Source of the DNA: Bacillota bacterium
GTDB lineage: Bacteria; Bacillota; UBA994; UBA5500
Length of the DNA: 64,000 nt
Assembly: GCA_012735505.1 (NCBI GenBank)
Contig: JAAYHE010000021.1
Span: forward strand, 1 to 64,000
Direction of reading: 5' to 3'
Translations under genes and position numbers: made by a program
The notes under the pieces: model-generated
What the model saw: the letters and a program-made list of their open reading frames with translations, nothing else
What the model was told of the DNA's origin: nothing
Database searches by the model: none
In this document: in pieces, positions 2,714-59,278 of the stretch
How the letters are laid out: each line of letters starts with the position of its first letter
Position numbering within the stretch: the stretch's first letter is position 1

Positions 2714-3185
2714 GCTAGAAAAACTGCTGGCAGTTTACAGCGAGGAGCGCGAGCTTTTCTGCCGTATGCTGGCTTTAGCCCAGGAACAAGTCAAATGTGT
2801 GGCGGTAAGCAATTACACGGTGTTAGCTACGATCTTAGAGCGGCGGCAGGCTCTGGCTGAAGAAATTAGTGCAGTGGCATCCCGAGCCCAGTCTGTGGCC
2901 CAAGAGATAGCCCGCGATCTCGACTTGCCCGAGACCAACATTAGCAATCTGCGGCAAAAGCTACCGGAGGCAGCCGTAGCTCCTTTAGAGAAGCTATTGG
3001 CGCAGATCTGCTTGGTGGCAGAAGAAATTCAGCAGATTGATGCTAAGAGCGAGGCTGAAATGCAGCAGGCCATGCAAGGGCTGCGCGGCGATTTGAAACA
3101 GGTGCAACGGGGGCAAACCGCCTTGCGGGCCTACAAGAACGCGCCCCAACCGCATACGGCTCGTTTCATCGATCGTCAGAGATAA
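2700..3185 (+). CDS. FlgN-like/FliT-like flagellar chaperone
   Basis: Coiled-coil protein overlapping the fliS 3' end by 14 nt; position and helical composition typical of FlgN/FliT. Confidence 0.6.
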   Translation: MAITKLEKLLAVYSEERELFCRMLALAQEQVKCVAVSNYTVLATILERRQALAEEISAVASRAQSVAQEIARDLDLPETNISNLRQKLPEAAVAPLEKLLAQICLVAEEIQQIDAKSEAEMQQAMQGLRGDLKQVQRGQTALRAYKNAPQPHTARFIDRQR

Positions 3186-3236
3186 GAGTATACAGAAAAT
3201 GTTTTTGGCAGTGTCGAAAAATAAGGCAGATTTGAT

Positions 3237-3265
3237 TTGACTTCCAGCTAATGGGGTGGTATAGT
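3237..3265 (+). promoter_or_regulatory. Sigma-A-like promoter for cspA
   Basis: TTGACT - 17 nt - TATAGT. Confidence 0.6.
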
Positions 3266-3312
3266 TAGTCTGCGCTTCGGCGCGGCATCAATTTTAGGAG
3301 GAATGTCCTTAC

Positions 3313-3510
3313 ATGATCGGTACTGTCAAATGGTTTAACCAGAAAAAAGGCTACGGTTTCATTACTACAGAGAACAACGAAGATGTCTTCGTGCATTTCT
3401 CTGCCATTCAGGGCGAAGGTTTCAAAACGCTCGATGAAGGCCAGCAAGTTGAGTTTGATGTGGTTGATGGCCCGCGCGGTCCGCAGGCTGCCAACGTTAC
3501 CAAGCTCTAA
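3313..3510 (+). CDS. Cold shock protein, CspA family
   Basis: '[30 protein letters not shown]' CSD signature; RBS aggagga. Confidence 0.97.
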
Positions 3511-3530
3511 TTTGATATAGTCTTCCAATG

Positions 3531-3566
3531 CCCCGGGGTGTGGCCACCCCGGGGTGTTTGATTTTA
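3531..3566 (+). terminator. Terminator after csp gene
   Basis: ccccggggtg-tggc-caccccgggg then tgtttgatttt. Confidence 0.8.
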
Positions 3567-35614: not shown

Positions 35615-36022
35615 TTGCAAATGTGTGAGGAGGGATGGTGCGTGGCGCACCCAGTACCTGGCTTGTGTCCCGTCTGTGGTCAAAAGCTGTCTGTCAGCAA
35701 GTTAACCTGTCATCATTGCGAAACGACTATCGAAGGCGATTTTGTTAACTGTCGTTTTTGCGGGTTAACCCCTGAGCAAAAACATTTTGTCGAGGTCTTT
35801 ATCAAGAATCGGGGCAACATTAAAGATGTTGAGCGGGAGTTAGGTATTTCGTATCCTACTGTGCGCGGACGTCTCGATAACGTCTTAGAGGCGATGGGCT
35901 ATCGGGTAGACGAGGAAGACCGAGCTGAGGTTGCCCATCGTCGGCGGGCTATATTGGATCAGTTGTCTAAAGGTGAAATTGGAGCCGACGATGCTGTCAA
36001 GCTGCTAAAGGCTTTAGACTAG
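35615..36022 (+). CDS. DUF2089 family protein (zinc-ribbon/HTH)
   Basis: 'CPVCGQKLSVSKLTCHHCETTIEGDFVNCRFCGLTPEQKHFVEVFIKNRGNIKDVERELGISYPTVRGRLDNVLEAMGY'. Confidence 0.93.
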   Translation: MQMCEEGWCVAHPVPGLCPVCGQKLSVSKLTCHHCETTIEGDFVNCRFCGLTPEQKHFVEVFIKNRGNIKDVERELGISYPTVRGRLDNVLEAMGYRVDEEDRAEVAHRRRAILDQLSKGEIGADDAVKLLKALD

Positions 36023-36031
36023 GGTGCAGAA

Positions 36032-36343
36032 ATGAAGCGGCCGACATTCCTTTTGTGGTGTAGTATTAAGCCGGGTTTTAGGCAAAAACGGATCGTGGTT
36101 CCGGTGCCCTTGCCTCTCGTAGAGGATATTTTACAGGCCGTAGCATCGTTATGGAGCTTAGGCAGCCGCTGGCTAGATAGGCAAGAGGAGCTTAGGGACT
36201 TTAAAGAGTTTGGTCCTCTGATCAAGCAGATTTTACAGCAGATTCCGCAGATAGTTGCTACCCTCCGCCAGGCTGGCCCTTTCACTCTGGTGGAGATATC
36301 TCAACCTGCGGACGGGCTAGAAGTCGTAATTAAAGTAGTCTAA
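36032..36343 (+). CDS. Uncharacterised 103-aa protein in the DUF2089 operon
   Basis: Intact ORF immediately after DUF2089 gene; no family recognised. Confidence 0.55.
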   Translation: MKRPTFLLWCSIKPGFRQKRIVVPVPLPLVEDILQAVASLWSLGSRWLDRQEELRDFKEFGPLIKQILQQIPQIVATLRQAGPFTLVEISQPADGLEVVIKVV

Positions 36344-36540
36344 TACTTAGGTGAGCGAGAAGCGAGACCTGCTAAGTAACTCCTTCAAAGCCAAGGTGAG
36401 GTCGCGCGTCATGCGTAAAGCGCATTGGGGCTCTGATCAAGGAGCGAAGGAGACTTGGATTACGCGCGGCAACAGGCCGAGCTTGCGAGTGCCGCCGCGC
36501 CCAAGCCGACTGAGCTTTTTCCTTTTGAAAATGGGGTCAC

Positions 36541-36564
36541 ACGCGCGCGAGCATGACCGCGACC
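36541..36564. repeat. Dispersed repeat family D, second exact copy
   Basis: ACGCGCGCGAGCATGACCGCGACC identical to 10456-10479. Confidence 0.75.
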
Positions 36565-36647
36565 TTTGTGTTCAGCAGTAAAGTCACAGAAAGCTCGCTT
36601 TTCCTTTTTAAATTCAAGGTTCAGCTTAAAAAATATTAAAGTTAATA

Positions 36648-36676
36648 TTGACTTCCTGCAGGGTTCTCTATATAAT
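36648..36676 (+). promoter_or_regulatory. Sigma-A-like promoter
   Basis: TTGACT - 17 nt - TATAAT. Confidence 0.75.
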
Positions 36677-36712
36677 TAAGTCAGAAAGGCGCCTTTTAAG
36701 AAAAGGAGGTTT

Positions 36713-37084
36713 GTGGTAGTGCAACAGGAAAAGCTCCAGATTCTCAAGATGTTGGAAGACGGGAAGATTACGGCTGAGGAAGCTAGCCGCCTGTTAGCGG
36801 CTGTGGACGATCCAGTTGCTACGGCATCCGGTGGCGGGGCTAAGTGGTTTCGGGTGCGCGTGTTAGATATCGACACCGGTAAGGCCAAGGTTAATGTTAA
36901 CCTGCCGATAGCTCTCGTGGAAGCAGGGCTAGATTTTGGGTTGAAATTCGTACCCGACGGTGTTATGAGGGGTAACGTAGACATCAGACAAATTGTTGAT
37001 GCTATCAAGCATGGCGCTGTGGGCAAGCTAGTCGAGGTTGAAGACGAGGACGAAGCTATTCGGGTAGAAATCGTCGTCGAATAA
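36713..37084 (+). CDS. SHOCT-like (YvlB N-terminal-like) domain protein
   Basis: 'EKLQILKMLEDGKITAEEASRLLAAVDDP' motif. Confidence 0.8.
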   Translation: MVVQQEKLQILKMLEDGKITAEEASRLLAAVDDPVATASGGGAKWFRVRVLDIDTGKAKVNVNLPIALVEAGLDFGLKFVPDGVMRGNVDIRQIVDAIKHGAVGKLVEVEDEDEAIRVEIVVE

Positions 37085-37149
37085 GTCCTAGGTATATAAC
37101 CTACTCTGTATATAATATATAGAAGGGAGAGTAGGTAGGAGGGAACGCC

Positions 37150-37503
37150 ATGCGGCGAAATTTTGCTTGGAATGTCCTAGTCAATGCGGCAGCACTTTAC
37201 GTGATCGCGCGTTACTTGGTGCCCGGAGTATACTACAGCAGTGAATTTGTCATTGCTCTGGCCGCCTTGGTGCTAGGAGTAATTAATGCCCTAATCAGAC
37301 CCATCTTTGTCATCCTATTGCTGCCGTTTACAGTCATTACCCTAGGCTTGTTCACTTTCGTAGTGAATGGCTTGATGCTCAAGTTTACTACCTGGATAGT
37401 GCCGGGCTTTTACATCCGCGGTTTTTGGACGACGGTTTGGGTATCGATGCTGATGAGTTTATTTGGAACACTAGTGAATAGTTTGGTTGGAAAACGAGAT
37501 TAA
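37150..37503 (+). CDS. Phage holin family IV/YvlD-like membrane protein
   Basis: Four TM segments; 'VLGVINALIRPIFVILLLPFTVITLGLFTFVVNGLMLKFTTWIVPGF'. Confidence 0.92.
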   Translation: MRRNFAWNVLVNAAALYVIARYLVPGVYYSSEFVIALAALVLGVINALIRPIFVILLLPFTVITLGLFTFVVNGLMLKFTTWIVPGFYIRGFWTTVWVSMLMSLFGTLVNSLVGKRD

Positions 37504-37507
37504 AAAA

Positions 37508-37540
37508 AAGAGGCTGTTTACAAACAGCCCCTTTTTTTAT
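37508..37540 (+). terminator. Terminator after YvlD-like gene
   Basis: aggctgttta-caaacagcccc followed by ttttttt. Confidence 0.85.
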
Positions 37541-37737
37541 TTATTTATATTGCGGGAAGCTAAATATTTTATTAGAATACTTGACGGATACCGTACAATC
37601 TTCTACAATGAAGCTGAATCAGACATTTCATACTTTTCATGTGAAAACTACTTTGTATGATTATGGAAGGAGGGATGCAGGAAACTGCCCTGTGGGGCCG
37701 TTGTTTTCTGCTGATCTGCCTAAAAAGGGGGAAAAAA

Positions 37738-38010
37738 ATGAGCAAATTGCTTAGGAGTAAATTCCTCGGGGCTACTACAGTAGGAGAGCGTGGTCAAATA
37801 GTCATCCCGGCCGCTGCGCGAAAAGCTCTTGGCATAGAAAATGGTGACAAGCTGCTTGTGTTTGGTCGGCGTCATCGAGAAGGGCTTCTCCTGATCAAGG
37901 CAGAGGTTGTCAACAAGTTGGTTAGCGACGCCTGGTCAGAAGCTAACCAATTGGAAAAGCTTTTGGTGGCGGCGCAGACAGCAGAGGAAGAGGGACAAAA
38001 AGATGAGTAA
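37738..38010 (+). CDS. AbrB/MazE/SpoVT-type DNA-binding protein
   Basis: 'GATTVGERGQIVIPAAARKALGIENGDKLLVFG' swapped-hairpin motif; ATG 37738. Confidence 0.92.
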   Translation: MSKLLRSKFLGATTVGERGQIVIPAAARKALGIENGDKLLVFGRRHREGLLLIKAEVVNKLVSDAWSEANQLEKLLVAAQTAEEEGQKDE

Positions 38011-55383: not shown

Positions 55384-57657
55384 GTGGGCCATGACACTAT
55401 AAGGTGGGAGGTACTGAGTGAAGTGGATCTTACAGCTAACGCGCGTACCGTCTTAGAAAGACGGTATCTGAGAAAGGAAAATGGTCAGGTCATAGAGACT
55501 CCCGAGGATATGTTTTGGCGTGTAGCTAAAAATATCGCCGCTGTTGAGGTGACCCATTATGGACAAAGCGACAGTTATGCCGAGGAGTTGGCCCAACAGT
55601 TTTACGAAATGATGACTAATCTCGAATTTTTACCTAATTCACCGACACTGATGAACGCCGGTCGGGAATTACAGCAGCTGGCGGCCTGTTTTGTCTTGCC
55701 GATTGAAGACAGTATGGAAAGTATATTTGAAACCCTAAAAAACGCTGCCCTCATCCATAAGAGTGGCGGTGGCACAGGCTTTTCGTTCTCTAATTTACGT
55801 CCCAAGAACGATATGGTGAAGTCAACAGGGGGCGTAGCCAGTGGACCTCTATCTTTTCTCCGAGTGTATAATGAAGCGACCGATGCCGTAAAACAGGGGG
55901 GCGCCCGGCGGGGAGCGAACATGGGGATTTTGCGGGTGGACCATCCTGACATTATGGAGTTTATTACGGCTAAAGAAGATCCTAACCAACTGACTAATTT
56001 TAACCTGTCGGTCGGCATTACCGAAGATTTTATGCAGGCAGTGCAGGCAGACGCCGAATATGATTTAATCAATCCCCGAGATGGGAGTGTAGTCGGCCGC
56101 CAGTCGGCGCGAGCCGTATTCGATAAGATAGTAGAAATGGCTTGGAAAAACGGAGAGCCTGGTATCATTTTCTTAGATCGTCTCAATCGCGACAATCCGA
56201 CTCCCCAGCTGGGTGAAATCGAGAGCACTAACCCCTGTGGAGAACAACCCCTCTTGCCTTACGAAGCTTGTAACTTAGGATCGATAAATTTAGCCCGCAT
56301 GGTAGAACAGCAGCCGGAACCCCGGGTGGATTATGATAAGCTGAAGCGGTTGGTGCACCTAGCAGTCCATTTTCTAGACAACGTAATCGATGCCAATCGT
56401 TATCCCTTGCCGCGAATTGAAAAGATGGCTACTGAAAACCGCAAGATCGGTCTCGGCGTAATGGGCTTTGCTGACTTATTGATCCAGTTGGGTGTTCCTT
56501 ATAACTCTGAGGTAGCTGTTGAATTGGCCGAAGAGATAATGGGTTTCATCGACCGGGAAGCTAAAGCAGCCTCGGCTGCCCTAGCCGAAACGCGAGGTGT
56601 TTTTGCCAATTTCTCGGGGTCTATCTACGATTATCCTGGCGGTCCGCGTTTGCGGAATGCTACAGTAACCACTATTGCGCCTACCGGCAGTATCAGCATC
56701 ATTGCCGGCGTATCTAGTGGCATAGAGCCCCTATTTGCAGTTTGCTTCCAACGCCATATTCTAGATGACGATCGTCTATTTGAAGTTCACCCATTGTTTG
56801 AGCGGATAGCTAAAGCCGGAGGCTTTTACAGCGATGATTTAATCCGCCGTGTAGCTGAGGCAGGCACTATCCAGGACATAGAGGAAATACCTGACGATAT
56901 CAAGAAGGTTTTCGTGGTAGCTCACGATATTGCACCCGAATGGCATGTGCGCATACAGGCTGCTTTCCAGCGCCATACCGATAATGCAGTGTCCAAAACG
57001 GTTAATCTCCCAAATCATGCTACGCAAGCCGATGTGGCCAAGGTTTTCCTTTTGGCCTATGACTTGGGTTGTAAAGGTGTGACTATTTATCGAGATGGAA
57101 GCCGCCAATTCCAGGTTTTATCGACACCTAGTGCCGCTAACGAGGTTAGCGCTACCAGCTCGCAGGTAGCAGCAGCGGAGGAAACCCCTTCCGCTAAGGT
57201 GAAGCCACGCGTCAGGCCCGATGAAACCCATGGAATCACCAAGAAGTATAAGATTGGTGGTTGCGGCAAGCTATATGTTACCGTCAATTCCGACGAGTAC
57301 GGCCTGTGCGAGGTCTTTACTAATACCGGCGAAGAAGGTTGTTCTTCCTTATCGGATGCCGTTAGTCGTTTGATCAGTCTAGCACTCCGTAGTGGTGTAG
57401 AAGTATCAGCTATATTAGATCAGATTAAAGGTATTCGCTGTGTAGCCTGTATTGTCGACCCAGAAACTTGGGTTCTTAGCTGCCCCGATGCTATCGGCAA
57501 GACCATCGAAAAATATGTGAATGGTACCGTAAAATTTGATTTAAACGTTGCCCGGGGCCCCAATGCGCTCTTGTTATGTCCAGAATGTGGCGGCTTGCTC
57601 GTGCCGCAAGATGGCTGCGCTACTTGTGCAAACTGTGGTTTCTCTCGCTGTGGCTAA
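55384..57657 (+). CDS. nrdJ: Adenosylcobalamin-dependent (class II) ribonucleoside-diphosphate reductase
   Basis: '[55 protein letters not shown]', '[24 protein letters not shown]', TSCPD-like and zinc-ribbon C-terminus; true start may be slightly downstream of 55384. Confidence 0.96.
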
Positions 57658-57688
57658 TTATTACTAGAAAAAGTCTATGAGGAGCTTA

Positions 57689-57716
57689 GAAGCTGCCCTT
57701 GCCGGCAGCTTCTATT
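57689..57716 (+). terminator. Terminator after nrdJ
   Basis: agaagctgcc-cttgcc-ggcagcttct then attctatt. Confidence 0.75.
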
Positions 57717-57878
57717 CTATTGTGCCCAGATAATACATGTCCGGCTATGAATGGGGAGATATTAGAAGCGAGAGGCGTTGTGACAGCAGGGAACTGGATA
57801 GTAGGACACGTGTCATTTTTCACAGCAATATTGCCTGTCCTCGTGTCCAGAACGCCAACTATTCACGGAGGTGTAAAC

Positions 57879-59189
57879 ATGCATAATTACAACACAAGAT
57901 CCCAGTATTCTTCAGGTCAGCCTGGCTACCCCCAGCCCAATCAGTTTGGCGCTTACAGCCAGAGCCAAACGCAAGACATTGGTACTACGCGCAGTGAGCA
58001 AATTATGCAGCGCCAGATGGGCGGCATGTCGCAAGTAATGCAAGCCGATCGCAATGTAGGCAGCGGTGGCGGCCCCACCCAGTATTCTCAGATGAGTGGG
58101 GGCATGGGAAGTGGTCCCAGCCAGTATGGCAGTAGTCAGTATCAGGGTGGCAATCAGAATTTTGGCCAAGGCTATAACACTGGCAACTATGGTGGTGGCT
58201 CTAACTATTATGGTTCGCCTAACCAGTATGGAGCCTACGGTTATGGCCAGACGCAAGATATCGGCACCACCCGTAGCGAACAGATGATGCAAGGCGGTAT
58301 GGGTGGCATATCACAGGCCATGCAGGCTGACCGGAATGTAGGAAGCGGTGGTGGTCCAACCCAGTATACCCAGATGGGTGGCAGTATGGGTGGTAGCCCA
58401 AGCCAGTATGGCAGCAGTCAGTATCAGGGTGGCTCCCAGAATTTTGGCCAGAGCTACAACACAGGTAACTATGGTGGTGGCTCCAACTATTATGGTTCGC
58501 CTAACCAGTACGGAGCCTACGGTTATGGGCAGACGCAAGACATCGGCACCACCCGCAGCGAGCAGATGATGCAAGGCGGCATGGGCGGCATATCACAGGC
58601 CATGCAAGCCGACCGCAATGTGGGCAGCGGTGGCGGCCCGAGCCACTCATATGGCGGCGGTCAGACCCAGTATACCCAGATGGGCGGGGGCATGGGCGGT
58701 GGCCCAAGCCAATATGGTACCAGTCAATACCAGTATGGGGCCCAGAATTTTTCTCAGGCTTATAGCACTGGTAACTATGGTGGCGGGTCTAGCTATTATG
58801 CTTCGCCCAACCAGTACGGAGCCTACGGTTATGGGCAGACGCAAGACATCGGCACCACTCGCAGCGAGCAGATGATGCAAGGTGGCATGGGCGGTATATC
58901 ACAGGCCATGCAAGCCGACCGCAATGTGGGCAGCGGCCCGAGCCATCCTTATGGCGGCGGTCAGCCCCCATATGCCCAGATGAGCGGAGGCATGGGCGGT
59001 GGCTCAAGCCAGCATGGCACCAGTCAGTATCAGGGTGGTGGGCAGAACCCCGGCAACTATGGTCGCAGCAATTATGGTAATACAGCCGGATCTAACCAAG
59101 TTCGCAACCCGGGAGATACTCCGATAGAGAGTCAAGCTAAGCAGAACTTAGGAGTTAGCTACAGCACCCCTCCTAGTAGCGACGGCTAA
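57879..59189 (+). CDS. Q/G/Y/S/N-rich tandem-repeat low-complexity protein
   Basis: ATG 57879 after cacggaggtg RBS; repeated 'QTQDIGTTRSEQMMQGGMGGISQAMQADRNVGSGGGP...YGSSQYQGG..NFGQ.YNTGNYGGGSNYYGSPNQYGAYGYG'. Confidence 0.9.
   Translation: MHNYNTRSQYSSGQPGYPQPNQFGAYSQSQTQDIGTTRSEQIMQRQMGGMSQVMQADRNVGSGGGPTQYSQMSGGMGSGPSQYGSSQYQGGNQNFGQGYNTGNYGGGSNYYGSPNQYGAYGYGQTQDIGTTRSEQMMQGGMGGISQAMQADRNVGSGGGPTQYTQMGGSMGGSPSQYGSSQYQGGSQNFGQSYNTGNYGGGSNYYGSPNQYGAYGYGQTQDIGTTRSEQMMQGGMGGISQAMQADRNVGSGGGPSHSYGGGQTQYTQMGGGMGGGPSQYGTSQYQYGAQNFSQAYSTGNYGGGSSYYASPNQYGAYGYGQTQDIGTTRSEQMMQGGMGGISQAMQADRNVGSGPSHPYGGGQPPYAQMSGGMGGGSSQHGTSQYQGGGQNPGNYGRSNYGNTAGSNQVRNPGDTPIESQAKQNLGVSYSTPPSSDG
57966..58980 (+). repeat. 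In-gene tandem repeat, units of 282, 282 and 306 nt plus a partial fourth
   Basis: Unit starts (ca[g/a]acgcaaga[t/c]at) at 57966, 58248, 58530, 58836. Confidence 0.9.
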
Positions 59190-59233: not shown

Positions 59234-59242
59234 TCTTATACA

Positions 59243-59278
59243 AAGGTCGCCCTACAGCAAGGGCGACCTTTTCATTTT
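59243..59278 (+). terminator. Terminator after repeat-protein gene
   Basis: aaggtcgccct-acagca-agggcgacctt then ttcattttt. Confidence 0.85.

Follow-up and report, generated by a model that had tools for sequence, protein, structure and literature searches.

SspE, the gamma-type SASP of Bacillus, is a disordered, Q/G-rich and internally repeated protein. It has been hypothesised to act as an amino-acid reservoir (PMC8452069), and none of the clostridial genomes examined contains it (PMC3533761). In C. difficile, the sigmaG regulon includes the SASP genes, and sigmaF promoters are distinguished by a G upstream of the -10 (PMC3789822). Here, we analysed a repeat protein encoded in a 64,000-nucleotide stretch of Bacillota DNA (the window). 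We consider, with a probability of roughly 0.42, that it is a lineage-restricted, disordered spore protein made in the forespore, working like a gamma-type SASP but standing outside that family.

The ORF at 57879-59189 is a real gene of 436 codons with an ATG start, a GGAGGTG just upstream and a TAA stop at 59187-59189, and its own genome carries a single copy. The conserved boxes of the protein are anchored at aa 33, 127, 221 and 323 (0-based), giving unit spacings of 94, 94 and 102 aa (282, 282 and 306 nt); these computed anchors match the four unit starts and the spacings of the preliminary description (Table 1). Tandem Repeats Finder also detected the array, with scores of 1161 and 996. 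The units had been called near-identical, which holds for units 2-4, whose box proteins are identical and whose box DNA is 86-96% identical over 102 nt, whereas unit 1 is more diverged, with 74-80% DNA identity to the other boxes and 5 amino-acid changes. Likewise, the insertion SHSYGGGQ is present in unit 3 but is not confined there as had been described, since unit 4 carries SHPYGGGQ. Over all box pairs, 4-19 codon differences are silent and 0-5 replacing, namely 4-14 silent and none replacing among units 2-4, and 12-19 silent and 5 replacing between unit 1 and the others. Such mainly silent differences indicate that the protein sequence is translated and under selection. Comparison of 12 units from the four genomes leaves 18 columns of the box without variation, IG, EQ and MQADRN among them; the residues that never vary include an E and, within QADRN, the D and the R.

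Table 1. Positions of the repeat-protein gene, its elements and its upstream neighbour in the window.
Feature	Position	Strand	Basis or remark
nrdJ (class II ribonucleotide reductase)	55384..57657	+	named from sequence; neighbour in all four genomes
Terminator-like hairpin after nrdJ, before repeat gene	57687..57714	+	sequence
Promoter-like element ACATG-N15-GGAGATATTA	57735..57764	+	conserved in two orthologs; sigmaF/sigmaG-like
Ribosome-binding site region (cacGGAGGTGtaaac)	57864..57878	+	sequence
Repeat-protein gene	57879..59189	+	436 aa, four units, signal peptide not seen; orthologs known
Box 1 (diverged copy, QTQDIGTTRSEQIMQRQMGGMSQVMQADRNVGSG)	57966..58067	+	box comparison
Box 2	58248..58349	+	box comparison
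Box 3	58530..58631	+	box comparison
Box 4	58836..58937	+	box comparison
C-terminal tail (NPGDTPIESQAKQNLGVS...)	59103..59186	+	conserved in two of three orthologs; helix predicted for part only
Terminator-like hairpin past repeat gene	59242..59271	+	sequence

Among 61 relatives and 399 genomes of the phylum, orthologs were found in three further genomes only, from the same family and one sister genus. A genome-contig collection yielded three loci (JAKOXL010000034, UBA5500 and CALNBW010000289), apparently those of the same three genomes. The repeat protein was not found in the viral contigs and plasmids searched, and the distant matches opened from the 399-genome search (E 0.01-0.1) held no open frame resembling it. 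Two of the three ortholog genomes have the gene directly 3' of nrdJ; in UBA5500, a contig break falls inside it and another contig carries nrdJ with the likely gene start. The following gene is whiA in the sister genus and a different one in the window's genome. In the sister family f3 (L101-L103), a protein of ~340 aa lies behind nrdJ and is followed by whiA in two of the three genomes; for the f2 genomes, no match to nrdJ was obtained. Since the repeat gene is absent behind nrdJ in the sister family and its orthologs are so restricted, it seems to have originated in the window's family or to have entered it.

The gene holds 3 to 4 units across four assemblies (the window and three relatives); the copy in UBA5500 is truncated where its contig ends, and short reads may underestimate the copy number. 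That such units recur in four separate assemblies speaks against an artefact of assembly. The box DNA of units 2-4 is closer among themselves (86-97% identity) than to boxes of other genomes (65-84%), and within-genome copies are mostly more similar to each other than to those of other genomes. This comparison supports homogenisation of the units by recombination, as had been suggested from their likeness.

The composition of the protein is dominated by G (24%), Q (15%), S (13%), Y (10%) and N (6%), together 67%, with a single K, no C or W and a charge near zero. AlphaFold2 returned, at low confidence in both runs, a mean pLDDT of 40 for the whole protein, with a single 9-residue helix located in the tail, and a pLDDT of 54 with two short weak helices for one unit, while the Uversky values fall on the disordered side. 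These data predict a protein that is disordered except for a short C-terminal helix, and all three agree with the earlier view of a low-complexity, repeat-built sequence. The tail motif NPGDTPIE.QAK is common to three of the four orthologs, the window's included, and was lost in G001, whose ortholog (L034 8180-8200) ends with ...QQGNDC before a hairpin-like stretch. A search with the tail matched numerous proteins of ~930 aa as well as some shorter sequences, a likeness attributed to chance within conserved proteins: among the matches opened, the isoleucyl-tRNA synthetase signature GWDTHGLPIEQQAIK accounts for two, and a GlyA-like NPGDT stretch for one.

Composition and AlphaFold2 thus give the low-complexity, disordered sequence expected of prion-like or phase-separating proteins. 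The preliminary description had raised a prion-like reading; a rival explanation along this line is that the protein is a vegetative cytoplasmic condensate or scaffold, perhaps tied to the adjoining nrdJ. Its FUS-like composition, the 46 Y/F (one per 9.5 residues), the very low charge and the position next to nrdJ in four genomes would fit this role. However, it appears improbable: the repeat gene comes with a promoter-like element of its own and with terminator-like hairpins, an arrangement that gives no indication of co-expression with nrdJ, the nrdJ of the sister family has a different gene behind it, and no sigmaA promoter was recognised upstream. The hairpin after nrdJ suggests that the repeat gene is probably transcribed alone, and the hairpins on either side point to a monocistronic gene; hairpin-like stretches also lie 3' of the gene in the relatives. 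One could also imagine an adhesive fibre, secreted or at the cell surface, whose export bypasses the classical signal, as repeat polymers of such composition are known on cell surfaces, but it is very improbable, since neither a signal peptide nor an anchor or a motif for export was seen in the 436-aa sequence. The earlier remark that no signal peptide is evident therefore stands.

Sequence searches of Pfam, NCBIfam, PHROGs and PDB gave no significant match to the repeat protein, so that no characterised family, known spore-coat proteins included, was recovered from these databases. In Pfam, no family appeared at E<=1, the SASP_gamma profile included, and no known coat family was matched in Pfam or NCBIfam. 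A PDB lead, a mannose-binding agglutinin (QxDxN-like, E=0.5), was dropped as chance. Profile comparison with the SASPs of the same genomes revealed no relation (hhalign probability below 1%). The canonical GPR site E[IVLFM]A, of the EIA or EFA kind, is absent from all four orthologs, where the box has instead an invariant E in [ST]EQ. A description of the repeat protein was not found in the literature searched.

The genome of the window carries Spo0A, SpoIVA, SASP, GPR and sigG genes. All but Spo0A were found in four of the four genomes, and Spo0A in three, the fragmented G003 being the exception. Upstream of the repeat gene, RCATG-N14/15-GGRGATANTA is present in the window and two relatives, the fourth genome being left out of this three-genome comparison as its gene is split between contigs. 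The same layout recurs at SASP genes in these and sister genomes, one paralog in all four genomes showing ACATG-N15-GGGnAnnCTA. When a matrix trained solely on SASP-gene promoters of these and sister genomes (13 sites, picked by eye) was applied, the conserved element scored best in each of the three upstream regions. Its scores were reached by 2%, 0.9% and 0.3% of the window's 220-bp stretches, three results that are not independent, and 2 other upstream regions among the 45 scored in the window exceed it. The element differs from the sigmaF consensus by 2, 3 and 1 mismatches in the three genomes, and it fits the G of C. difficile forespore promoters (PMC3789822). Weak sites resembling those of sigmaE/sigmaK, with 1-2 mismatches to short and loose patterns, do occur, but their place is not conserved.

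The top score of this matrix in the window belongs to an RNase-J-like gene, upstream of 21127 (- strand), with CAATC-N15-GGGAATACTA at 12.4 bits. Elsewhere, positions 3184-3559 give a borderline match to the cspA thermoregulator RNA family (79 bits, cut-off 78) upstream of the 3728-4270 gene. Between a dnaC-like gene and an ABC transporter pair, a cluster of short ORFs (35615-38010) includes a zinc-ribbon/HTH-like protein (35615) and an AbrB-like protein (37657).

The main rival explanation is a structural protein of the spore coat or outer layer, made by the mother cell, whose Y/Q-rich spacers would be cross-linked or self-assembling and whose box would act as an adhesion motif. G/Y/Q-rich low complexity without a signal peptide would suit a coat protein, sporulation genes are present in all four genomes, and the distribution is narrow, as for many lineage-restricted Bacillus coat proteins (PMC3533761). 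We nevertheless regard it as somewhat unlikely, since the conserved upstream element looks forespore-type, the mother-cell-type sites are weak and lack a conserved position, and K is nearly absent and C absent for the usual cross-links. The link to sporulation raised earlier is supported, indirectly, by the sporulation genes and the forespore-type element, which points to the forespore more than to the coat-making mother cell.

According to the forespore reading, the protein would be made in the developing forespore and then packed into the spore. Its four conserved ~30-aa boxes, set at regular distance within a flexible Q/G/Y/S/N polymer, could make it an abundant unfolded filler whose conserved, evenly spaced sites are cut when the spore germinates; alternatively, the boxes could mediate a loose assembly of the protein. 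That the invariant E of [ST]EQMM represents a changed cleavage site is a guess. Against this reading, a pure storage role leaves the strong conservation of the box unexplained, the promoter matches are imperfect, and the protein has neither a canonical GPR site nor any likeness to the SASPs found in these genomes. It is rather doubtful, in turn, that the protein is an independent counterpart of the Bacillus gamma-type SASP, invented in one uncultured Bacillota family for spore storage or as a matrix, whose repeated box ([ST]EQMM...QADRN) would be a new site of cleavage or assembly. The main interest of the protein lies in the forespore-type promoter together with this box. If the forespore reading is true, a disordered polymer that fills the spore evolved separately in this lineage, and such fillers would seem to arise repeatedly, showing their common requirements. 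The box, almost unchanged between species, would offer a handle on protease sites or self-assembly in spores. Furthermore, the locus fills a blank in the annotation with a protein family that can be checked.

Compared with FUS-like low-complexity domains, the protein shares Y/G/S/Q-rich spacers and regularly spaced aromatics, a likeness that is compositional only; unlike them, it is bacterial, carries a conserved box and has no RNA-binding domain. It resembles the low-complexity spore coat proteins of Bacillota in composition, absence of a signal peptide and narrow distribution, but differs by its long conserved box, the lack of a family match and an upstream element that is not of mother-cell type. 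Its promoter element is like the one found at an alpha/beta-type SASP paralog of these genomes (ACATG-N15-GGG), but the protein itself has neither profile similarity to these SASPs nor a SASP family match. Unlike SspE, it is ~5 times longer and rich in Y and M, its box sequence is unrelated, and it has neither a Pfam match nor a canonical GPR site. Like SspE, it is Q/G-rich, internally repeated, lineage-restricted and, by prediction, disordered, with a promoter-like element of forespore-type resemblance. The repeat protein is ordinary in kind, as a low-complexity repeat protein of a spore-former, and new in its sequence.
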